Shown here in pieces: positions 21,254-37,249 of a stretch of DNA of 64,000 bases (position 1 is its first letter; each line of letters starts with the position of its first letter). Both the position numbers and the translations under genes were made by a program. Below the pieces are notes generated by a model, which saw only the letters and a list, made by a program, of their open reading frames with translations, was not told the DNA's origin and did no database searches. This DNA is from Pycnococcus provasolii (Eukaryota > Chlorophyta > Pseudoscourfieldiophyceae > Pseudoscourfieldiales > Pycnococcaceae). The stretch lies in NCBI GenBank assembly GCA_938743325.2, contig OW568871.1:62001-126000 (forward strand). The letters run 5' to 3'.

Positions 21254-22026
21254 TTGATCGTCATTTTGCTGAGATCCCTCATTCAGTAAAGGAGTGTAGT
21301 AGTACTTTACTTGGTCTGTCTAGCGGTCGTCCATTCCCACCATTCACGTTCCCCATTCAGCCCTTTCAACAGCGGTGCCATTCAGCAGCGCGTTTTTACT
21401 ATACATGTCGCTAGTTTCGAAGTTACTACCTTTCAGGCCGCTTTTCGTATGCGTTTGGCGTGAGAGCTCTGGACACTCGCACTTACTTGTTGTGTGACAG
21501 GTCTTTTCGTAGTCCTTATTCTTTCCCACATCAGTCAGAGCTCGTCGGAGCTCGTCGGAGGGGATAGATGCGAGGTGTAGTGGCCAACTGGTGCGTTACG
21601 GGGATCCACCCTTGCACTAATATTCCAACTTACAAGTACTTCGAGCCAAGGAGGGCAACTGAAGAGGGCAACGAAGAACGAAGAACGAAGAACGAAGAGC
21701 GGAAAAAGGGGCCCGAAAGCGAAACGTTTCCTTCGGGGTAAAAAGTCTACCCGGGTACCCGGTACTGTACAGTACGAAGAAAAACAGACAACAGAGGGAA
21801 AGTACCCCCGGGGGGTGGAGAGTGCTCTCTCAACGGGGACAATGGTACAACGAGGGATCCCCCACACATCGGGGTAACTACGTCCAGGCTCAAGGGGTGA
21901 CTCCGGAACTTCTAAAGTGGCAACGAAGCCACGTTTTTTTCCGTTTTTTCTCCGACCACTTTCACTTTCCCTCCCTCCCTCCCTCCGAGGCTCCCTCCCT
22001 CAAAAGCAAAGCTCAGACTCACTGTC
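21254..22026. other. Intergenic, 5' region of the polycystin gene
   Basis: 773 bp with no supportable gene. A (GAAGAAC)n-like run lies near 21670-21705, a GGTACTGTACAGTAC palindrome near 21763-21777, and a CCCT repeat near 21970-21995, about 40 bp before the start codon. Frames here are short and overlapping. Confidence 0.5.
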
Positions 22027-25000
22027 ATGCCCGTCATGGCCTCAGGCTCACACCCTCAGTGGCGGCGCGCCTCCCAGTCAGTCTCCCTGCGCACTTTGAA
22101 CGCGACCGCCTCCTTGAAACTGAGAGAGCACATACGAGTTACACAACGCATACTTAAGGCAACCTCGTGGCTGCTCCTGCTTGGCGTGTACATCCTGTAC
22201 CTCGTCGCGCAAACGGACACGCGGGGCGCATACACCACGCACAACGCTATCGCGCACATACTGCAGCTCGGGTCGTCGAATGGCAAGGGCGACACGAGAA
22301 CGGGTGGCGGTGCGAGGTTGCACGGCGTTGTGTCGTACCTACGACGCGCATTTGTGGACCAGGCTTGGCGAGACCCCGTATGTGGCGACGGCATCTGCGA
22401 GGCGCCGTACGAATCGCCTGGACAGTGCGTTGCAGACTGCGGAACGGACGGCACGTCCGTGCGCGCTGTTTTGAGAGTCGCCGCCGACTTCAGGCATACG
22501 CGTGTGCCTGAGGATGCGCTGCAACGACCGGCACGGTGGAATCTCTGCCGACGAGACGACGAACGTGCGCGAGCGGGGCTTGTCGATGACCTCTGCTTCT
22601 ACCGCGACAGCCAACGAGTGGACAGGGATGCCAAGGTTGCTGAACTCACGGTGCGTCCGGGTGCGTGGTACCTCGAGGTTGATGGCGATCCCGCGGGGCG
22701 CACGCAAGGACTCGTACTCGACGCTGGCGTGATGGCGTCCCGTGGAGCCGCCGTGGCGCACGCCGCCACCTATTCTGGTGGCAAGGACGGCTCGCACGTG
22801 CTCATGACACCCAACGCGTCCGAGTGGTCTGTCTGCTACACGCCGCGGAGAGCTGCGGCGCTGCCCGTGCCACGCTTCGAGGACAAGGAGAAAGACGGCA
22901 GCCCCATCGTCGTGTCCGTCACGGCGGGAAATCGCAAACGCCTCTTGCGCCGTGCTCTGTTGCAGCAGCTGCTGCTGCCGTGCAAATTCACCTGCCCTCC
23001 CGAGCCTCTACGCACCGTGCCATGCCCGTGTGACGCATGCGCGTCAGATAGAACGTCATCAGCATGTGCCGAGTCGACGCTGACTTACTGCGACGCACCC
23101 GATGGCGCAGGTTTTTCTTACCCCCCTCCTCCGCCGCCTTCTCCCCCGCCTCCGCCGAGCCCGCCTCCTCCTCCGCCACCACCTCCGCCGCCATCGCCTC
23201 CTCCTCCGCCACCGCCATCGCCTCCACCTCCGCCGCCGCCATCGCCTCCACCTCCGCCGCCGCCATCGCCTCCTCCTCCTCCACCTCCGCCGCCGCCGCC
23301 GCCCTCCCCACCACCTCCACCTCCTTCGCCCCCTCCTCCATCTCCACCTCCACCGTCACCGCCACCACCTCCACCACCGCCACCTCCACCACCATCGCCT
23401 CCACCGCCGCCTCCTCCACCGCCGCCTCCTCCACCGCCCCCTTCTCCACCGCCACCACCATCGCCGCCGCCCTCGCCGCCACCTTCACCTCCTCCACCGC
23501 CGCCACCATCTCCTCCACCTCCATCTCCTCCACCTCCACCTTCACCACCTCCATCACCACCTCCATCTCCACCTCCATCTCCTCCACCTTCTCCCCCACC
23601 GCCCCCCTTGCCACAAACGTGGAATGGTGTGGGCGAACTGCTCAAAGGCACAATGCAACAAACATCTTTCGGATGGGCGGTTTCGTTATCCAACGACGGC
23701 ACGCGTGTTGCCGTCGGCGGGCCTTCGTACTCTCCTGCAGGTAATATGATGACCATTGGAGTCGTGCATGTGTTTGACTACACCGTAACTGGCACAGGGT
23801 GGACGCAGCTCGGTCAAGACATTGTTGGAGAGGCGGCACAGGATAATTCGGGAAACTCTATCCAACTTTCAGGCGACGGAACGCACGTCATCATTGGAGC
23901 TGAATACAATGACGGTAGTGGTGCTAATGCGGGTCATGTTCGCGTGTACAGGTACGACGGCGGTGCCATTGGCTGGGCGCAGGTTGGAACCGACATCGAC
24001 GGCTTTTCAGGCACGTGGCAATCGTGTTGTGGATTTGGAAAGGGAGTTGCCATTTCATCAGACGGATCGCGCATTGCCGTTGGGGCATACAGAGTCTCGG
24101 GTGTTTATGGAATCACTCCATATTCAAACCAATATTCTGGTCGTGTTTGGGCGTTTGAATTCATTTCAGGCGCGTGGCAGCAGATTGGAAGCGCCATTGA
24201 TGCGGAAGCCGCGCTTGACGAGTTTGGCAAGAGTATATCCATGTCAGACAATGGAAGCCGCATCGTTGTAGGAGCAAGGAATAACGACGTCGGAGCGCTG
24301 AACAATGCCGGGCACTGCCGCGTTTTCGAATACTCGGGCGGAACCTGGACTCAGCTTGGAAATGACATCGACGGTTGGTGGTTGAATGGAAGAGCCGGAG
24401 GCGGAGAAGGACAGGGTGTGTCCATATCCGGAGATGGAACGCATGTGGCGCTAGGATCTTACAGCGCAAATTTCGTAGGCGGGGTGCAAGTTCATGAGTA
24501 TGATGGAACGAATTGGAATCAAGTCGGGGCCGACATCGAAGGAGCGAACGTAGGTACATCTTCAGCCACCCAGGATTCATTTGGCTGGTCCGTGTCTCTG
24601 AGCCAAGATGGATCGCGCGTAGCCATTGGTGCTTACATGACTGGTGCAAATGACGAAGGTCAGGCGCGCGTCTACGAGGACGTGAGCGGCACATGGACAC
24701 AGCTTGGCATCGACTCTGATGGTGATGGTGGGTCACAAGAATTTTTCGGCCATTCGGTGGCGATATCAGGTGACGGGCAGACTTTTGCAGTCGGAGCTTA
24801 TGGTGGATTGGATTTTAACAGAGGATACGTTCGCGTGATGAATTTGGGCACAGGTGCGTCTGCGTCACCTCCGCCGGCAGGGGCTACGCCGATTCCACCA
24901 TCGCCACCACCATCGCCGCCGCCGCCGCCGCCACCGCCGCCACCGCCGCCGCTACCACCATCGCCGCCGCCACCGCCGCCGCCGCCGCCGCCATTTGTTT

Positions 25001-28000
25001 GGTCATCCTTAACAATAGACGGTGAGGGAGCCAACGACTATTTGTCACGAAGTGGATCCACTCATACTTCGAATGCACTGGACATTTGTAATGATGGTTC
25101 TCGGATCGTTGTAGGAGCCTACGAAAACGATCCAAATGGAAATTCTCGCGCGGGACACGCGCGCGTTTTTCAATTTTCATCGGGCACCTGGATACAATTA
25201 GGTCCAGATGTAGACGGACCTTCGGCGAATTATCGAATGGGTGCGACTACAGCAATCTCTGGCGATGGCAACCGCATTGCAGTTGGTGCTGGTTTTACTA
25301 CAAGCCGAGTCTTTGTGTATGAATATAATGGCGCCATATGGTCCCAAATTGGTACCTTTTCAGGTGGTTCTACTGAGTATTGCGGAGATTCGGGACTTGA
25401 TCTTTCAAGCGATGGTTCACGACTAGTTTACGGATGCAGAGCATATGGAAGTTTCGTCACTTATCCTGATGGATCCTCTTCAAGTACGAGTGGTGAAAGA
25501 GAAGGGAAAGTTATGGTGATCGAATACAACGGCGTATCATGGAGTCAACTTGGCACCCATATTTCGAATATTCCAAACAATGTCAATTTTGGAGCTCAGG
25601 TGAAGATCTCAGGAAACGGCCAATTCGTTGCTGTCGGTATGGAGAATTATGCGACAACCACATACGGAGATAATGAGGGGGCATTTATTGTTTACGAATG
25701 GAATGGTTCCTCATGGAGTCAAAGAGCCCCTCTGATCTCCAAAAATAATAATAGGCAAGCGCTTGGGTGTGCACTGTCAATATCAAATGATGGATCGCGT
25801 GTTGCAGTTGGCACTCGACTTTCGGGACCATTTATTGCAGCAGTGTACGAGTGGAATGGAAGCGCATATGCTCAGATTGGCCTTGACGTTGCAGGCGATT
25901 CTTCTAATAATGCTCCGTTTGGATATGCCGTGTCAATCTCCTCAGATGGTTCCCGTTTAGCTATTGGTACTCAACTGGCTGGATCACCTAGCAGTTCTAA
26001 CCCCGGATATGTCAGACTTTACGAATACGATGGATCCTCTTGGCAAGTGATTGGTCAGTCTGGCAGTGAGACTATTTTTGATACATCGGGGAGTAACACA
26101 AACTTCGGATCAGAAACAGCAATTTCAGGAGACGGAACACGAGTTGCAATGTCTGCTCCGTTTGCGTCCACTAACGGGTTGAGTGTAAATGGAGCATTGT
26201 ATGTATATGACACTCCTCCTATTACTGGGCGTCGTCGACAATTGCTTGGAAATCTGCATGAACCTGGTCCTGCCACTGATCAAAAACGTCGTACACGCCG
26301 TGCGCACCTCGTACGACCATCCTTCTATCAGGCGGACCCGCATTGTGTGAGTGCATCCTACCAAAATGTCGTCAGCAAGCGACTCTCGCCACGAACCGAC
26401 TGCACCGTGCCCACTACGCTCGGTGGCTCACTTCCTGCCCCGAATATCGAAAACAGGAAATTTGCCGCAGTCACCGTGCCATGCTCGATGCTCGCGCGAC
26501 TCCCAAACGAAGGGATTTTGTCATCCATGTACATGTACGAGCCTACAACAAATCCTACAGCTCTTGCAGCCTTGGGTACCCCAGACGGAGATGATCCAGG
26601 CGTGACGCACAACGCCGCCGGCCCTCTGGTTTCACTACTGCCTCACGACATTCCAGTCGCACCTGACGTAATCAATGTTGAGATTCCGTACCAGCGCAAG
26701 CTCGGAGGCAGCACGGATATCCCGTATGCACATATGATGCCTGACGAAGGATCGACGCAGTGGACAAACATCCCGATCGAGTCGACAAGTTGTGATGGCA
26801 CAGCTTGCGTTGCGATCGTGAAGGCGAGCAGCTTTGCCATCTTCGTCGTAACGGTGGACCCTCCGCCACCGCCGCCCCCTTCGCCGCCACCGCCACCTCC
26901 ACTGCAGCCTTCGCCACCGCCTCAACCAATCCACCCACCGCAGCCATGGTTACCGCCACCAATTCCGCCGAGCCTGCCACCCCCTCCAGCTCCGTATTTC
27001 CCGCCACCGAGTCAACCGCCACCGAACCCGCCACCGAGCCCTCCGCCAAGCCCACCACCACCGAGTCCACCACCTAATATGAAGCCTGTTTCTCCACCGT
27101 TGATTACGCAGTCACCTCCAGTAAACTTGCCACCTTCAGCCCCGGGCCCGCCGCCGCCAAGCCCGCCGCCGCCAAGCCCGCCGCCGGCTCGTCCACCTCC
27201 GCCACCTCATCCGTCACCTCCACCAAATCGAACACCGCCAGTCCCGCACTTTCCTCCTATGCCGCCAGCACCACCAGAATTACCGCCCGGTCCGCTTGCG
27301 CCACCGCTTGCACCACAAGCGCCACATATGCCACCGATTGCCTCGCCGCCTCCTCCAAGTCCACCGCCGCCTGAAGGTTCGCCGCCACCGCCACGACCCC
27401 CTCCGCCCGTACCAGATCTCGTGTTGGCGGTGTCGAACGATACACTGCCTGCTCCACCACCGATTTCCTCTCCGCCACCGCCACCTCTCGACGTAATAGC
27501 CCCTCGAATAACGCTCGTTGGCCTTGCGGATATTGAAATATACCAGTACGAGGAGTACATTGACGCCATGGCGACGTGCGTTGACGGTCAGGATGGTGCT
27601 GTTGAGGTACAGTCACCGATGGAACTCGCCAGATCATTGGATACGTCGCGTCCCACTTTACCGGATGCGCCGATTGTGCTCACGTACTATTGCGCAGATC
27701 TCGCTGGCAATCGTGCATCGGTTGAACGACGTGTGCACATACTGAGAGATCCATGTGCCGACGCGTCTGCCACAACAGGACAGCGTGAGCACGTCTGTCC
27801 AATCATGTACGAAAGCGATGAAGAAGGAGGTGTAGAGTGCAGCATGTACGGAGTTTGCTCAGTTCAGCAAGTCTATGTGGATCCCGAGCCTGAGAAAGCG
27901 CAATTGATGGCACTGTCGACTCCCGTGGATGCGATTCCGCCAAACATTCATCTCATCAGCATGTGGCCAAACGCCATCATGGATCAGACGGTGGATGGCA

Positions 28001-31000
28001 TGCTTGTTCTTCGCGAGGAAGTCACACAAGGAGAACGTTACGTAGACCCTGGGTACGTGTGCGTCGACCAAATGGATGGTGATTTATCCGAGCACGTCGG
28101 CGCCTTTGGTAACTTGGCAATCGATACGAGACTCGCCACTACAGAGCCGCAGATTATACGCTACACATGCACAGACCGCGCAGGTGCCAAATCTAGGGAA
28201 GTCCAGCGTTGGATCACCATTGTTCCAAAGTGTGGCAAAGGTGTTGAAACATGCCCCGATGGTTCGTGTCCGGTGGACGACGCTGATACATGCATCACGA
28301 CTGGAGTGGCTGTGGAAACAGAGGAACAGATGCATCCGGAGATTTTGCACCCTGACAGCCCGCCACTGATCAGTCTCATCGGCAACGCGATGCTTGTCGT
28401 CGAAGATCAAGGATATCGCGCGTGCACGCCCGAATTGGAAGTTAGCGCCATCTGCGACCATGGCGCGACTGCTCATGACGACGTGGATGGCGATCTGACT
28501 CCTTACGTGCAGGCGTGTGGTTTGAACTTTGAAAAACATGGTATTTCGGGGTGCACCATATACGGTGAGAGCTATCCTGGAACATACGAGGTGACCTTTT
28601 CAGTCGTGGATAGCGCGGGGCACGAGGCGAGCGTGGCACGACTCGTGACGCTGTTGGCCAAGTGTGACGCAGGCGAAGTGCTCTGCGCGGATGGCTTGAC
28701 ATGTGTACCCGAAGGCGTTCCTTGCGAACTTGACATCGCACCAGCTGTCGAGGTGGCTGCAGAGCCACCAACGCCGCCATCTCCGCCAAATGTTACCGCA
28801 ATTGGCAATCGTGTCGTGTCGCTGCCACGTTTCACGCCGTACACTTCATGCCAACCAGAGCAAGTGCCAACAAAGGAGCTTCCGTGCGATCTTGGAGCGA
28901 AGGCCATTGACGAGGAGGATGGGGATTTGCAAGCCGGCTTGCTTGTGTGTCCGCCTGACACCTGCCTGATCTCTGGCTGCGTGGGTCACGAGCTATGGCG
29001 TAAGGGTGTCGACAGTTGTGTGAATGCATCGGCACCTATCGGCACTACTTTCGACGTATCATTCGTTGCCTTCGACACGACGGGCGTATACGCCTCGGAT
29101 GTACGGAGCGTCACAATTACCGCGCCATGTGCCGAAGGACAGCATTGGTGTCCCGCCGATTCCCCATCTGGGCGATGTGAGGATGCTGCATGTGAGACGA
29201 TTGATGCGATGACTGGTGACGGCAATCTTCTGCCTTCCGTGCTCGTCACTGATGTAGAGATCGATCCATCTGGCCCAAGCATCGAGTGGCGCACGCCACC
29301 CGTCGAGGAGATGCCATTCGCTTTCGTGTTCGGCCAAACGCCTTGGCAATCGCTCAACGACATGACAGGTGGCAACCCTCTCGCGGCATGCCACAAAACA
29401 TTAAACCTTGCATTCTTCCCTCAGTGTGTCGCCAAGGCAAACGATGTCATCGACGGTGACGTCACAGAGACGCTTCGTACATATAGCCGGCAAGGGGAGT
29501 GCACGCCAAGCGTGCTCGCAGCAGGCTTGTGTCGCCCAGGCGTGCATGTCTTTTATCTCACCGCGTACGATCGTGACGGCAACCAGGGCTACGGCGACGT
29601 TGCGTTGATGATTGAAATTGTACAAGGATACGAAGAGACGTACACAGTCAACCGCACAGGTCCATGCGAGCCTTTTCTGGACCCGCGCATCGAGGACAGC
29701 GCGGAGGTGCGATCGAATGTAGCTGCTGAGCTCAATGTGCATCGAGGTCGTATCCGTGTAAACGCATGCGAGAAACTTGGAGGCGACATAGCTCGCCTCG
29801 AGGTGGTGGTTGTTCGGTCGTTCTACGACGACAATTCTGCCAAGCACCGTCGTAAGCTTGAGCAGCAGCAGGATGCGTCGTCAAGCATGCTGAGCCTACT
29901 TCGCATCGGCCCTGATAGTGCCGATCCACGCGGGTCTTGGTATTCAAACCAGCAAACACGCATCCTCTCGCTCGCCGCACAGGATCTTGCCATTCGCACA
30001 GACAACACGACGATCGGGACAAATATTACCATGCAGCTTTCGTCTGACATGGCTAAATCCGAGATCATGAGTGCTGTATCCGCACGGATCAACGATGCGT
30101 ATGCCTCGAATGTTGATGAGATTCTAACCCAGCAAGTAAATTTAGCTTCGCGCGCCGACGAGCTTGCCGACTTGGTTGCAAAAACAATCGCATTGACAGC
30201 ACAAGAAGAAGATGCTTTTGAAGATATCGGAAATAAAACGCTTGCAGCACAGGCACGCCTCGATGAGCTCACAGCTTCCCTCAATGCAGCGACGGGTACA
30301 ATCGATGGCGTGAATACCGCAACTCCGGATGTGGTGGCAGGATGCCGCGGTGCACGTGGATCTCGACACTCTTACTTTGACGTGACTGCAGCTGGTGGTG
30401 GAGAAAATGACACTTCTTCTACTGCGGTACCCATTGCTCGCCGTCGCCTCGTCGCCTCGTCGTCTCTGTCGCGCGCAACAGCAGCCTCAAGCTCGGGAGA
30501 TTATGTTGGGAGGAGTCGCTTGCAACGCGGTGGAGGTGTGTCTCGCAAGTTGCTCAGAGTCTCTGCATCTGGCAAGGATAAGCGCTTAGTAACCAAGCTG
30601 TCGGATGAGGATTTGAACGATGCGTGGAGTGGATACGCATCTGACGTTAACGTCGAAGATGACTTGCGCCTCGTGGACCACGTCGGATACAAACGACCGC
30701 GCACACTCGGTGCGACTGGCCAGCTTCGCATTGTGGGTGGAGTGCTTGTTACGCAGCGTCGCGCTTCTCGGGAGGCGGGATGCCGCGGTCGCACGGCGCG
30801 AGGCGCGGGTCAGGGAAGTTCAAACGGTGTGGATGTGATCAAATCTCGGCAAGATCGCTTCGAGGATCTCTTCCGTGAAATGCAGTGCTCGAGCCTTGAC
30901 ATTGGTGCAGCGTACGGCTTTGATGCAATGTTTGCGCGACTTGATCTGCCTAGAGATGTGACCAATCCTGTGGATACGAATTTGCATGGACTGTACGATC

Positions 31001-34000
31001 CTACGTTGCGACCGATGAGAGCTGCATTCTATAACGACTCCGAGCTAGCAGCGCCGGATACACCATTTGCATTCTTCGATCGTGACTATGATCCCACTAA
31101 TGATATGTCTTCAACCGACATGGAGCGTGCTCTATTCGACGTGTACTTAGATGGGACTTTGATGGAGAGCCGTGCAAAGCGCTTGCTGTCGTATTTATAC
31201 CTGTCTCGATTTGTCGATCGTCGGACGCGATCCGTGGACATTCGTGTGATTGTGCACAACGAGCCTGCGGGCGTGCTCGTTGACGTTCGAGTTCACATGG
31301 TGGTGAGTGCACAGGGCGATCTATTGTCCAGCACAGAGGCTTGGAAAGTGCCGCTCTTCGACTACTTCGACGGTTCCATCGGCAATCTCGGTCTTTTTAT
31401 CGTTGAGGTGGTCGTTGCAGTATTGGCAATCTTGCTTTGCATGAGCTCTGTTGGTGATGCGCGTCGGTTTGCGCATCTGCTGCACGAATCTATTATTCGA
31501 CGGCTTCAGCAGCGCATCGTCCATCGCCATTTTATGGTGGATGCATGGATTATTGTGGTTGACGCGCTTCAACTAGCGATCCCAGTTTGCTTGTTGGCGG
31601 CTAGTATCGTGCATTTCGTGTACTTCTTCGCGTACGTGCGCGACTTCACATACGAGCGTAGTTACCGCTGGTATGATGGTGACGGCTCTGCGGAGGCACG
31701 CATCCTTCTTCCGAAGCGTCTCGCGGATCCCCAGCCACCGATGGAGGGCTATCCACGTGGTGCATGGAGGCACACGCAACCCGCAGACTTGTCCGAGCGC
31801 GACGACTACTTTGCTCTGCTAGATAAGGTGGATGTGATGAGCGCGCTCAATGGGTGGTACCTCGTGCTTCAGGTTCCCATCCTGCTGGGTATTGCCGCGA
31901 ATATCATCCGCCACTTTTTTGGTCTTCCTATGATGTATCCGTACATGCGTACGCTTCAGCGCGGTCTCCCAAACATTATCACATTGATTGGTGTGATGAT
32001 GGTTTTCGCAATACTCTGCGCATATGCATTGTACGTACTAGTTGGCCATCGCATGAGTATGCATGCCCGTGCGCATCACGCCATTGAAAGTCTTGCCGAA
32101 TATCAGGTGGGCGATTCGTCCGGCTTGCAGTACCGTGTCAATTTGGGCACTGATGCAGGTGTGATCGTGGAGCCGACTGAGAATGTTGCCCTAGCTCTTG
32201 TGCACATCTTCTACCCGCTAATTACCGTGTTCGTGCTCATGCAATTCGTAGTTGCGATTCTTCTTGACTTCTTCACGGAAGAGCGTCAGCGCCGCCTGGC
32301 GAGAGAACGTTTCAAGGAAAGCGCCGAGTCGCCCGACGATGTGGTGGTGCGCATGTCGATGCATACATTAGGACACCTTGATGAAGTGCGAGACAGTCTT
32401 AGCTCTGTGTTGTACAATCTTGGGTGGCGAAATATATCAGCTTTTGTGTTCACGGGCAACACGAAGTGGCTTGATCCCCGGCTTGGACTTCGTGGTTTTT
32501 CATCCTCAGGGCCCTCATCCGATCAGAGTATGGGAGACGTGGGAATGAAGGAGGCTAGTAGCTCGTCACGTGACGTGTACATGAAGACACTATCACTCGC
32601 AGCGAACTCGGGCCCGAGGGAGATGAGCGCCAAGCTTTCGGCGAGAGATCGTTGGAGAAGCGCACGCCGACTCCTCCACGCTTCTTGGCAAGCTGCGACG
32701 ATGCTCAATCGCATGATCAAGCGTATTAAGGATGATCGTGAGGGCCGTGAGAGCAGTTTGGCTGCTGCTGAAGAAGCAGAGTCTCGCGTTGAGCTATTCA
32801 CCAGCGATGCGCGCGAGGATGGCTTGCGCATGGATACAGACCGCTACCTTCGCATGAATCGGGCGAATCGCCAGGAGCTCATCCTTCCAAAGCTTGGTGT
32901 TCTCGGTACGTACTGTTGTTGGGTTTCGGTGTTTTTGTGTGTGATTTGTTTTGTGGTTTGCTTTGGGTTAGTTGGTCTGTGTTTTCAATTATGTTGCATT
33001 TCCTAACAGAATCAATTTCCCCACCTGAAAACAGGTCATACGGCGCTGGGAGAGGTGCTTTATAAACTGCATGAATCAGTTGTTAAGCTCGCGGAAGAAA
33101 AACATCGTATGCATCGGCGAGGTGAGGGTTCCTCGTTCAAGGGGCGTCCTAGCTCAGACGAAGATAATGAAGAAATGCGACGACAGTATTTTGGCGTTGA
33201 AATGATCAATGAGTGGACAAGTGGAGTCGCCCTTGCACCAGATATCTTAGTGGTCAACATCAACGAACTAAGCGTTGAACCATGTGAGGAGAATATTGCA
33301 GAAGCGGGTAAGGAGAATTCAGCGGAGGAAGAGGCGAATGAAGAAGAGGGCCTTGCTAAGAAAGGGGCAGAGGATGAGACGATTACAGCAGTGGATAATC
33401 AATTACTTCGATTCGTGTCGAAAGTTGACCGATCGCGCCTTCGGAGTACGACACTGCACCTTGTGGAGACGAAGCGAAGTGAAATTATTCACAGAGCTTG
33501 CTCGCAACTCTCACGCCGCGTTGTTCATGACCTCGGGTGGCGTGCAGGGACAGAATTTAGAAAAATGCATGGTGAAGAGCTAGTGAAGGCGGTGCTTCTT
33601 CGTGCAAGAGATACCGCCAAAGGATTGCAGGCTGTGACTGAAGATATGTTGAAGTTGAGCACGTCGCTGCGTGACGCGGTGATCACCACACGCAACGCGG
33701 CGCCTCGCGTGGCTGCAGCCAACAAGTCGCGAATGCGGATACGTGCGAGCATGCCCTCTTGGTTGAACAAGTACGTCCGCGGCGACGTCGTTGACAATGC
33801 ATGGCAGATGGGTACGGATGTTGTTGGCGTCGTCACGGAGGTTCCTTGGCGTTTCGCTGGCCTCATGCTTAATGCGATGTGTGGCCGTGACGACTCGATT
33901 CTTATAGGAGACCCTCACAAGGACACTTTGTCCCCGAACAGCGCGGAAATTCCCGATAGTCATTCTCACGCCAATTTCGACGAGTGGGGTGGCAAACGTG

Positions 34001-34020
34001 AGGGGTATACGAGTTCGTAA
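22027..34020 (+). CDS. Giant polycystin-type channel with two 7-bladed propellers
   Basis: join(22027..32905, 33035..34020), about 3954 aa. The 129-nt intron (GTACGTAC...GAAAACAG) is supported by a continuous frame across it (LPKLGVLG|HTALGEVLYKLHES). Order: first membrane helix (46-62); Cys-rich CGDGIC segment (about 119); Pro-rich block 1 (365-529); seven propeller repeats (531-942; WTQLGxDIDG and SLSxDGxRVAIGAY motifs); Pro block 2 (948-990); seven more repeats (992-1400); Cys-rich region; Pro block 3 (1613-1823); about five Ig-like DUF5011/HYR-type repeats (1826-2535; DDVDGDLT, CADLAGNRAS); helical stretch (2697-2762); polycystin lumenal domain (2895-3115); five membrane helices (3120-3417) ending FVVAILLDFF; long cytosolic tail. 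This is the PKD2/TRPP channel layout, expected to conduct cations, often in cilia. A VGD lies where the pore LGD is expected. Outward parts suggest wall or matrix contact. Convergent with the SPPPP protein. Confidence 0.88.
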
Positions 34021-34176: not shown

Positions 34177-36075
34177 TTAATCATCCGAAAACCGCGCGTC
34201 CGTGCGAGCGCGCTTGGCATCGTACTGCCAACGCATCAAGATTGCGTCCGCCATCGTCGTCGGCGGAGCAATGGCTGGACGAGGCTTCGAGCTTGCCACC
34301 GCATGCTCGACGTGCCTTTTGACGCGAGGCTTGTTCAAAGGCGACTGCGCCGCGGGGGTTACCTTCACCTTGCCTGCGAGCGAAGACGCCACCAGTGCCA
34401 TTGAAGACGGCGTCTTCGCGCCGTCGTTGTCCTTGTAGCCGATCGCCAACGGCGCGACATCTGTCTCCGGCGTGGATGGCTTTTCCTGCCCTTCCACGGC
34501 AAGTATAAGATCCTTCGGCTTCACAACCAACGGAGGCGCAGACGCCGTGCGGCTTAGGCAGCAAAAGTCCCTCGGAACGATGCGAAGGGTCGCGAGCATT
34601 GCGAGAGCAGCGACCGCCATCGCCGCGGCCACCACAACCACGATGCCGGTTGCACTCAGACCCTCGTCTATGCGAGGATCACCAAGCGGCGAAGGAGCCG
34701 CCGTCGTGGGCGGGTTGCGAACGACCGGCATGCTAATCGCGTACACCCTCTGCACTCCCTTCTCGCCGTACTCCCGCATCGCCTCAGCAAGCAAGCCGTT
34801 GCTTGTCGCCTTGATGAGCTGCAGCTCAGCCCGTGTGGCTACCGTGAATGGTACACGTAGCTCGAATTCTAACCGGCTCACGGCCGTCCCCTCCACCATG
34901 CTGCGCAGGTATCGTCGTGGCGCAAACGCGTGTTGTGCGGTGTAATTGGAGATGCGTATGATCGCCGTGTCCTCGAACGTTGCTAGGCCGACGGCACTCA
35001 CGATCGCGCGACGCAGCACGACTTTCGCGCTTTGCGTGGCATTTAGGATAACGCCAACCACCGCAACGTCGCCGAGCACCGCGCTTTCGTCGGCAAGCAG
35101 GCCCACGACGGGAGGGCGAAGCGGGTGCGGCGGCGGCGGCGATGGCGGCGGCGATGGCGGTGGTGGCGGAGGAGGAGGCGGGGGAGACTGCGGCGGCGGC
35201 GGTGGAGGTGGCGGTGGGCTTCGAATCGGCGGTGGCGGCGGCGGCGATGGCGGCGGCGGCGGTGGAGGCGGTGGAGGCGGTGGAGGCGGTGGTGGCGGTG
35301 GGCAGCTGCCGTCCGCAGTGCACGGGTGCGGCGGCGGGCTCGGTGGTGGCGGGGACGGCGGCGGAGACGGCGGCGGCGGCGGCGGAGGAGGAGGAGGCGG
35401 TGGCGACGGCGGCGGCGGTGGTGGAGGCGGTGGCGGCGGGCTCGGCGGTGGTGACGGCGGCGGTGGGGTTGGCGGTGGTGGTGACGGAGGTGGCGGATTG
35501 CACGGCCTTTCAATTTCGCCGAAGAACGTGCAGTACGGCGGCGGCGGTCCCGGAGGCCTGTCTGGAGGCGGTGGTGGGCTCGGAGGCGGTGGGCTCGGTG
35601 GCGGCGGGGGAGGAGGACTCGGCGGTGGCGGGCAAGGCGTCTCCGTTTCTGTCGTCGTGTTCCAGCACATCGGCCTTAAGCTTCCCGTGGAGTTTGTGAA
35701 GAGCCCCGTCGCGTTGACGATGCGCACGATGGTTGGCGGCGGCGGCGGTCTCGGCGGCAGTGGCGGTGGCGACGTCCTGTTCGCCAGTAGTGTCGCGTTC
35801 ACGAAGTTCGGCTCGTCGTTCGGCGGCTTAACGACAGCCTGTGCGTATGTTGGCCTCAACGTGCCCAGTTGCGTTCCAAAAAGTACGCACACGACACAAA
35901 GCCACACTACAAGCTGCACAGGACTATGAAACTTACGAGGTGTTGTGCAAACAAAACTTGTACTACACTTGTACTGTAAACGCTTAGAAGAAACGCTACT
36001 ACCAGGAAGAGTAAGAAACGCGGACATTCTTCTTATTCTCATTGATATTGATGGGGATGACAATGAAGGAGGCAT
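34177..36075 (-). CDS. Hydroxyproline-rich-type (SPPPP) membrane glycoprotein
   Basis: 632 aa. A hydrophobic stretch (LVVWLCVVCVLFGTQLG) near residues 55-72 fits a signal peptide if translation starts further in (MRIRRMS or MSAFLTL are alternatives to MPPSLSS). The middle (about 105-340) is almost pure PPPPSPPPP, interrupted by short Cys-containing inserts (PCPPP, YCTFFGEIERPCN, HPCTADGSCP). A globular part follows (about 345-455; VVGLLADESAVLGDVAVVG), then one membrane helix (GIVVVVAAAMAVAALAML, near 490) and a basic cytosolic tail. The design resembles chlorophyte extensin/pherophorin-type wall proteins, but with a membrane anchor. Hydroxylation and glycosylation of SPPPP are known in green algae; here they are inferred. 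The N-X-T/S sites (NATLL, NRTS, NSTG) support secretion. Stops face the polycystin gene 157 bp away. Confidence 0.8.
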   Translation of the reverse strand: MPPSLSSPSISMRIRRMSAFLTLPGSSVSSKRLQYKCSTSFVCTTPRKFHSPVQLVVWLCVVCVLFGTQLGTLRPTYAQAVVKPPNDEPNFVNATLLANRTSPPPLPPRPPPPPTIVRIVNATGLFTNSTGSLRPMCWNTTTETETPCPPPPSPPPPPPPSPPPPSPPPPPDRPPGPPPPYCTFFGEIERPCNPPPPSPPPPTPPPPSPPPSPPPPPPPPPPPSPPPPPPPPPPPPSPPPSPPPPSPPPHPCTADGSCPPPPPPPPPPPPPPPPPPSPPPPPPIRSPPPPPPPPPQSPPPPPPPPPPSPPPSPPPPHPLRPPVVGLLADESAVLGDVAVVGVILNATQSAKVVLRRAIVSAVGLATFEDTAIIRISNYTAQHAFAPRRYLRSMVEGTAVSRLEFELRVPFTVATRAELQLIKATSNGLLAEAMREYGEKGVQRVYAISMPVVRNPPTTAAPSPLGDPRIDEGLSATGIVVVVAAAMAVAALAMLATLRIVPRDFCCLSRTASAPPLVVKPKDLILAVEGQEKPSTPETDVAPLAIGYKDNDGAKTPSSMALVASSLAGKVKVTPAAQSPLNKPRVKRHVEHAVASSKPRPAIAPPTTMADAILMRWQYDAKRARTDARFSDD

Positions 36076-37249
36076 GTGGACGGGACGGGACTGGTGTGGT
36101 GTTTGTCTTGCTCGAGGAGAAAGAAGGACTTAATTTTTAAGGCCTTTGACAAACCAAACCAAAACTGGACAAAACAGGACAGGGAGTCTCTGGACGGGAC
36201 GGGCATTGATCCCTCCATAGAGAACTACTGATGGGCCATCAATGGGCCATCCCATCCCACTCCTTAGTCTAATTAAAATCGCTTCTATAATAGTCTATGA
36301 TCGATCATTGGATCGGCCTTTAAACTTTCCTTCTGTCCTCCCATGCGCATTGTCCCTGGTTTGTTGGGATCCCGTCCCCGTTTATTGGTCCGGAATCCCG
36401 TTCGGATCGATCGATTCAACGGGGACAACTTTACAACTTTACAAGGCACCGTCGTCGAGTACTGTACTCCATGGAGAACGCCATTTGTGGTAACCGGTGT
36501 GGTTTCCTTCCTAGGACTAACCTTTGTAACAGGACGTCAAAGGGCGCCCCCCCTTGGCGATTGGTCGAGTCACCAGCTCCTGGCTGCCTGGATACAGACA
36601 GCCAGATACCTTTTGGGGATAGTTGGCCTTTACCAGGAAGCCCTGCTACCAGTCCTCCATACTGTACCAGTTAAGGTTAGGTGACCTTACAGGGAGTGCA
36701 TCTCTCTCTCGCTTTGTCTCTCACTTATCTCTCTGGTCGCGTCTGGTCGCGTCGTCACTTGTCCCGTTCTCACCCCCCTTGGCCTGTACTTTCCCCAGGT
36801 ACAGTACACATCTTCCCTACTACGGCTACCGTAGCTACCTATCGTAGAGCACGGTGAAGTTTTCTGACGCCTGAGGACTCCGATACCACACTCCTTGTGG
36901 TTGGATATCGGCCGTTCCACTTCGATCTTTGTCCAAAAAGTCAAGAGGAGGAGCCGATAATATGCCTCAAATAAAATCTAAAAAGTAGGAAGGATTGAGG
37001 GCACTTTAGAGTTTGTTTGGTCTACCCTACCCTAGTACTACATAGGGTACATATCTTATGTGTCATGCAAGCGGAAGCGAACAGCTCAAAGCAAAACGAA
37101 CCACTCAAAAAATGGAACGACCTGATTGTGACAGTGTCACATAAGCCTGAAAGCAAAAGGAAACATTCTCACTCCGCTAGTGAGGTCCAAACGGACTACT
37201 TGGCAACAGTTTTTGGTTAGTTATAAGTACTTTGTAAATCTTGTGATTA
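36076..37249. other. Intergenic, no supported gene
   Basis: 1174 bp. I see short repeats of GATGGGCCATC near 36231-36256 and several TACTGTAC/GGTACAGTAC motifs (near 36458, 36664, 36800), plus CTACATAGGGTACA near 37040, which recurs at 55657. ORFs of 60-113 codons here have no domain or bias that would make them credible. Confidence 0.4.

Follow-up and report, generated by a model that had tools for sequence, protein, structure and literature searches.

What kind of protein joins integrin-like propellers to an ion channel, and what such a chain might do in a green alga, is the question raised by a forward-strand locus of Pycnococcus provasolii within a window of 64,000 nucleotides (contig OW568871.1, positions 62,001 to 126,000; the window is the whole stretch analysed, and coordinates are positions in it). 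An earlier note on this DNA had proposed a polycystin channel carrying two complete propellers. The most probable answer, at roughly two chances in three, is a functional, unsplit polycystin of the MST3 type, in which S1 stands at the N terminus, an insert of about 3,000 residues interrupts the TOP region, and the S2-S6 pore lies near the C terminus; propellers at the surface would bind a target, and load on the arm would gate the tetramer. This reading is supported, at the level of sequence, by the order of the parts, the single frame, the exact sevens of propeller blades, kinship with MST3, and a family of 23 members with differing heads. "Unsplit" refers to Chlamydomonas MST3, reported to lack S1, two TOP helices, and one immunoglobulin-like (Ig-like) domain, all provided by SIP, a separate protein of 361 residues that resembles the N terminus of PKD2 (PMC11015965; PMC10846610).

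The frame 21916-33006 (+) is open over 3,696 codons with its first Met at 22027, and its in-frame stop (33004-33006) falls within a GT-AG intron of 129 bases (32906-33034). Two acceptors preserve the frame, of which the one at 33034 alone yields PKLGVLG directly followed by HTALGEV, the kind of reading found in five of six related database proteins (P0001, P0002, P0004, P0005, and P0006; P0003 ends there), and it was chosen for that reason. After splicing, the predicted protein begins with Met at 22027, ends before a stop at 34018-34020, and has 3,954 residues (Table 1). Judged by the frame, which is unbroken up to the single intron, the locus is one gene, as had been claimed.

The protein is no single oddity, since it belongs to a family of 23 members with differing heads. 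In the assembly searched (32.33 Mb, 46 contigs), the channel part gave 30 matches at 23 loci, including the window's own, and the N-terminal region gave 25 places, namely C1, C23, and these 23 loci, where it always lies upstream on the strand of the channel. An identical open-frame length is reported from both ends at 18 of the 23 loci, for which reason these 18 giants are read as lying in one frame; the starts of the N-terminal and channel matches are 1,955-5,884 residues apart in the giants (median 2,605). An assembly chimera, or two genes run together, has nothing in its favour but size and is scarcely credible, given that the same order of parts recurs in one frame at these 18 loci and that P0002-P0006 from the database match five of the loci at 90.8-99.8%, three of these proteins uniting FG-GAP, Ig-like, and channel parts in a single chain; both possibilities were rejected on these grounds.

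Public gene models of the family are incomplete in places. The C9 paralogue is 99.1% identical to RI054_07g36510 (P0005) of Pseudoscourfieldia marina over 3,848 residues, and the two species are reported to have a common 18S gene (PMC11130579); the public model starts at residue 704 of the C9 frame, so that S1 is lost. PPROV_000401300 (P0128) of P. provasolii, which shows 99% identity with the N-terminal region across the covered 66%, is a fragment of 220 residues. Models of this kind would resemble MST3, which lacks S1. P0001 (2,033 residues) reaches 52.8% at best among the 23 channel loci, to L044, and further family members therefore exist outside this genome. The channels of L055 and L056 (C7:501913 and C19:174102) are almost identical, with branch lengths of 0 and 0.015 on different contigs, and this pair is a very recent copy or conversion. 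The longest frame of the family (6,984 codons) is that of L062 (C4:459875-478858), with about 5,884 residues from SIP-like region to channel.

The channel, proposed earlier to be of the PKD2 type, is not visible in the single sequence (Ion_trans E = 2): single-sequence searches of Pfam and the PDB with it returned almost nothing, and a paralogue profile was needed to bring out the PKD2 type. The Pfam model PKD_channel has no match in the window protein and matches four of 19 members at E <= 1 (8.6e-4 at best); with 45 bits, the C18 member clears the Pfam cut-off, and it matches the window channel at 1.5e-32. The profile of 19 paralogous channel parts finds MST3 at 1e-26, PKD2L1 at 1.6e-8, and PKD2 at 5.5e-5, with T-type calcium and bacterial sodium channels next at about 4e-5 through the S5-S6 part; the TOP domain is covered by the MST3 match and weakly by that of PKD2L1. 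Aligned with three Pfam-positive polycystins of the same genome by hhalign, the profile gives a probability of 99.6 and E = 6.2e-24 over TOP and S2-S6. An x-G-D filter, read by eye from the alignment, is present in 15 of the 19 members and reads V-G-D in the window protein. The AlphaFold model of the channel, folded from six relatives, is poor; the 42 Foldseek matches at E <= 0.001 are all polycystins at TM-scores of 0.12-0.22 to the query, and VIA run on this low-confidence model places polycystins in all of rows 1-21 of 50. Because the model is poor and these scores are low, the channel fold is not rested on it. On the profile evidence, the channel is predicted to be of the polycystin (TRPP) type, with TOP and then S2-S6 alignable with known polycystins.

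Hydropathy places S2-S6 near the C terminus and detects no helix directly ahead of the TOP domain. S1 is found at residues 42-60 from Met (79-97 of the open frame); it is detected by hydropathy in the window protein, C22, C14, and C9, and falls below the threshold in C8. The SIP-like region carries the motif W-x-x-P-x-CGDG-x-CE-x-P-x-E...C-x-x-DCG. S1 and the CGDG-x-CE region align with the N-terminal helix region of the ordinary polycystins at C1 and C23, which are Pfam-positive and have frames of 1,607 and 1,484 codons; the N-terminal profile matched no solved chain. About 3,060 residues separate S1 from S2, and the C-terminal part starts aligning near PKD2 residue 295, within the TOP domain, in the poor model. 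As S1 precedes the arm and the C-terminal alignment starts inside TOP, the arm is best described as an insert of about 3,000 residues in the TOP region, that is, in the S1-S2 loop of a predicted six-helix channel. The earlier picture of a polycystin-1-like, free N-terminal ectodomain has to be given up, with S1 standing ahead of the arm. Such an ectodomain could be rescued if the single hydrophobic stretch at 42-60 were a signal anchor or a cleaved signal peptide, which is possible in principle; yet the 41 residues ahead of it are net basic (seven Lys/Arg and one Glu, counted by eye), the stretch and the CGDG region align with the N-terminal helix region of C1/C23, and the channel would be left with S2-S6 only, all of which makes this alternative highly improbable.

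The inserted arm carries two propellers. Pfam detects FG-GAP_2 in nine stretches of the window protein (6.9e-22) and Bact_surface_Ig-like (PF16403) in three (1.7e-13). A blade hidden Markov model (HMM), seeded and iterated on the own family, reads seven blades, a proline rod, and seven more blades, which bears out the earlier claim of two sets of exactly seven repeats, as do the 28 + 28 strands (2 x 7 x 4) of the AlphaFold model of the twin propellers (mean pLDDT 78.1, pTM 0.53; folded from 32 sequences picked by eye, mainly for coverage, from 120 listed of 2,001 matches). Heads were read across in five of the 23 giants and partly in three more. The five members read from head to channel carry 2, 1, 1, 4, and 6 propellers, and all 14 FG-GAP blocks in them have exactly seven blades, the weakest counted blade having E = 2.4e-3, while two matches at E about 1 inside the C22 and C14 channels were not counted. 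The database proteins P0003 and P0004, both partial models, show six blades (plus a trace) and five. A PDB sequence search with the propeller gave chance-level matches only, and Foldseek ranks mainly double WD40 proteins on top of the list for the twin model, with integrins from rank 21. In a second look with VIA, integrins come first and modelled propeller 1 aligns with entire integrin propellers, in agreement with the closed propellers proposed earlier; this VIA result concerns propeller 1 and is hardly a test of propeller 2.

The proline blocks described between and around the propellers were located as three rods; the Ig-like repeats hold up by Pfam, but not their number, given as about five where Pfam sees three. 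The domain between propeller 2 and rod 3 has no Pfam match; it ends SCDGTACVAIVKASSFAIFVVTV and is kept in C22, C14, and C32 between head and rod. This end recalls that of GAIN/GPS domains, and a GAIN-like fold at 26221-26850 is conceivable. Its hydrophobic stretch (26800-26856) scores 2.02 in hydropathy, slightly above S1 at 1.92, and is taken for a strand of the domain, being absent from C9 and C8 although their chassis is unchanged; a helix at this point would mean another topology.

Heads differ among members. At least 12 of the 23 giant loci contain FG-GAP matches, and all of these loci belong to one clade of 13 members, the thirteenth of which, C32 (channel 63% identical), has seven RCC1 repeats in the head slot, repeats that likewise form a propeller. 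At C7:918k (L077, C7:916000-918871), a domain of ~155 residues with CSDCGKCG is repeated four times in full, and a fifth copy has begun where the sequence read ends; the copies are nearly identical and separated by proline linkers, and this array is recent tandem growth of a different head. At C4:274k the arm consists mostly of proline rod and has a single small domain. In a comparison of the window protein with C22 and C14, the Ig part and channel are 85-97% identical and the heads 32-42%. The corresponding synonymous divergence (dS) is 0.03-0.16 for the Ig part, 0.33-0.41 for the channel, and 0.34-0.95 for the N-terminal part, against 1.9-3.0 or saturation for the head. The ratio of nonsynonymous to synonymous divergence (dN/dS) of 0.20-0.48 for the Ig, channel, and N-terminal parts supports purifying selection on the chassis.

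DNA similarity to C22, C14, and C32 ends alike at 23105, at the edge of rod 1, and restarts at 26296 (C22), 26433 (C14), and 26617 (C32); low-complexity rods were masked in this comparison, and the joints may fall within rods. Window propeller 1 is 51-54% identical to the heads of C8 and C9 and 41-44% to that of C22, whereas the closest channel to the window protein is that of C22 (84%). Given that the heads diverged while the chassis stayed alike, and that propeller 1 is nearer to C8/C9 than to C22, head exchange, or chassis conversion around heads, appears to fit better than slow divergence in place. One may go further and see a cassette family of 23 receptor-channels, in which whole heads on a constant chassis are swapped by recombination at proline-coding tracts and surface recognition is diversified, a tentative proposal at somewhat less than even odds.

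The relation to MST3 depends on where S1 resides. In a tree rooted on a PKD2L1 fragment, with the long branch L008 left out, MST3 and the 23 giants group together at 99/97, adjoining C1/C23; support is 95/84 with L008 kept, and MST3 with C1/C23 is disfavoured (p-AU 0.019, for a group named after the tree had been seen). The S1/SIP-like region is in cis in all 23 giants, with the S1 helix within the match in 20 and the match starting behind it at C10:629114, C4:478340, and C15. On this evidence, the giants combine an MST3-type arm with an S1 that has stayed in cis. It should be considered that the ancestor already had split MST3 and SIP, and that SIP was re-fused N-terminally in the Pycnococcus line before expansion. 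Micromonas and Trebouxia are reported to have a SIP gene (PMC10846610). Mamiellophyceae stand outside Pseudoscourfieldiales plus core Chlorophyta in a concatenated tree, and the placement of Pseudoscourfieldiales is described as unstable (PMC10495350). Fusion at the 5' end would produce the observed order of parts. Such a re-fusion is nevertheless rather unlikely: the region is in cis in all 23 giants and in C1/C23, the two ends diverge in concert (Spearman 0.95 for bits and 0.60 for identity over 22 paralogues), ordinary PKD2 likewise has it in cis, and no orphan SIP-like copy is seen among the 25 genome matches, though a diverged one could escape this search. The tree is silent on the older state because MST3 is one long branch. 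No protein under the name SIP came up in the third protein search; the Monoraphidium protein P0135 (427 residues) has an S1 region without a channel and may be a cut gene model.

As to function, an unsplit channel of this kind would sit at the cell or ciliary surface, its insert forming an arm of proline rods and two integrin-alpha-like propellers that would lead back to TOP through the Ig-like repeats. The rods, possibly hydroxylated and glycosylated stiff helices as described for mastigonemes (PMC11015965), would hold the heads off the membrane, and the propellers might recognise a glycan or a protein carried by matrix, a partner cell, or a particle. Since both arm ends enter the TOP lid, load on the arm would be passed to this lid, altering the flow of cations through a tetramer that it would form by itself or together with an ordinary polycystin of the genome. 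The suggestion in the earlier note of a channel tethered to wall or matrix that pull or a ligand would gate is a reasonable guess. A purely structural role, in which the protein anchors an outer fibre or wall layer without channel function as MST3 would in the mastigoneme, draws on the nearest solved relative being a filament core, on the proline rods, and on the proposal that MST3 anchors via PKD2 and SIP (PMC11015965). It is judged unlikely, because the x-G-D filter is kept in the window protein as in 15 of 19 members and absent in MST3, S1 is kept, and the heads are folds that often bind, not one long scaffold; the retained filter favours a conducting subunit. A Radial_spoke gene (PF04712; G000:C5:1198137-1199324, 3.7e-65) in an alga reported to lack a flagellate stage (PMC10495350) hints at a flagellate stage that has gone unseen.

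Table 1. Layout of the locus in window coordinates
Feature	Position	Strand	Basis
Exon 1, residues 1-3626	22027..32905	+	open frame, gene model
S1, transmembrane segment ahead of arm	22150..22206	+	hydropathy; alignment to C1/C23 polycystins
SIP-like start of TOP region	22207..22938	+	25 matches in own genome; alignments
Proline rod 1 (about 81% Pro, 13% Ser)	23116..23619	+	composition, gene model
FG-GAP propeller 1, seven blades	23611..24861	+	blade HMM; 28 strands in AlphaFold model
Proline rod 2, separating the propellers	24862..24999	+	
FG-GAP propeller 2, seven blades	24997..26220	+	blade HMM; 28 strands in AlphaFold model
Unassigned domain (RRR...SCDGTACVAIVKASSFAIFVV), hydrophobic end	26221..26850	+	conserved DNA; hydropathy 2.02
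Proline rod 3	26860..27414	+	
Ig-like repeats (PF16403)	27493..29640, borders approximate	+	three Pfam stretches
TOP (polycystin) domain from first strand on	30703..31386	+	profile matches to MST3, PKD2L1; hhalign to canonical polycystins
S2-S6	31387..32274	+	hydropathy, paralogue alignment, profile matches
Single helices	S2 31387-31443; S3 31573-31629; S4 31852-31908; S5 31975-32031; S6 32218-32274	+	
Selectivity filter V-G-D	32107-32115	+	paralogue alignment
Intron GTACGT...ACAG, 129 bases	32906..33034	+	acceptor restoring relatives' reading
Exon 2, cytosolic C-terminal part	33035..34020	+	stop 34018-34020; matches C termini of 5/6 relatives

Directly downstream, a frame of 650 codons (34177-36129, - strand) encodes a proline-rich protein with one hydrophobic stretch, seen by eye, in its C-terminal third. 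Elsewhere in the genome, other FG-GAP genes (G000:C31:172344-175037, C36:251525-252742, C36:262639-263868, C11:147119-148330, and C1:1273454-1274674) beat the channel heads on the Pfam model (up to 68 against 35 bits), have no channel match in the genome search with the window channel, and form a second FG-GAP lineage. In addition, FG-GAP_2 occurs with PF16903 and PF04451 in P0062, P0066-P0070, P0073, P0081, P0085, P0093, P0095, P0102, and P0108, among the matches listed. These two families presumably belong to capsids of large DNA viruses, and the proteins would then be capsid proteins with propellers.

The literature search, made on titles and reaching few subscription papers or preprints, found no work joining FG-GAP or propellers with algal polycystins; the two papers that contain both "FG-GAP" and "polycystin" are, judged by their titles, on bacteria, and the main text of the MST3 paper contains neither "propeller" nor "FG-GAP" (PMC11015965). 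The earlier statement that no polycystin with paired propellers had been described holds insofar as no FG-GAP polycystin was found in print, but a close kind is published, since MST3 and seven other Chlamydomonas proteins are reported to carry large outer regions on a partial PKD domain (PMC11015965). What is new is apparently the unsplit MST3-type polycystin with integrin-like, seemingly exchangeable heads, MST3-type giants being known. With integrin-type heads and a polycystin channel in one algal chain, two fields are joined. The finding also bears on the published proposal that the gene split first, S1 coming off as SIP, with domains added afterwards to the new outer N terminus (PMC11015965): an arm is present here with S1 unsplit, and the split is therefore not required for such an arm. 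If the cassette proposal is true, the presence of S1 in cis would also mean that giant arms arose within a still intact S1-S2 loop, before and not after SIP and MST3 parted. Moreover, a natural series on one chassis (1, 1, 2, 4, or 6 FG-GAP propellers, RCC1, and others) is suited to asking how load or ligand on an outer arm reaches the polycystin pore, a long-standing question for kidney polycystins.

Set beside known systems, the window protein shares the TOP domain, S2-S6, and the filter motif with PKD2 and PKD2L1 (TRPP), but its S1-S2 loop of about 3,060 residues is far longer than their loop of about 220 residues; the Pfam scan gave no EF-hand match in it. Polycystin-1 resembles the window protein in that a polycystin core bears a very large outer region containing Ig-like domains (PMC11015965), whereas polycystin-1 has 11 helices and the window protein six, with the arm inside the S1-S2 loop; membership was rejected, as REJ, PLAT, and GPS have no match in the Pfam scan (E up to 10, where filters drop most matches above 0.1). 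With integrin alpha it shares the seven-bladed FG-GAP propeller, but integrin alpha ends in a single C-terminal helix, and a plain integrin was rejected because a polycystin channel stands at this end. The seven other SIP-completed, PKD-like proteins of Chlamydomonas are reported to combine varied outer domains (LRR, SRCR, SEA, and Cys-rich) with one channel type and, in six of the seven, poly-proline, as in the window protein; unlike it, their chains lack S1 (PMC11015965). Closest of all is Chlamydomonas MST3 (9b4h_X, 8,572 residues), at 1e-26 the nearest solved sequence and the tree sister of the giants, with TOP, S2-S6, and a giant poly-proline and Ig-like outer region. MST3 carries C-type lectin domains and MST1-binding proline repeats where the window protein has integrin-like propellers, it has no filter motif in the aligned place where the window protein keeps one, and its S1 is supplied by SIP whereas the giants have the S1 region in the same chain, for which reason the window protein is filed as an unsplit relative of MST3 and not as MST3 itself.
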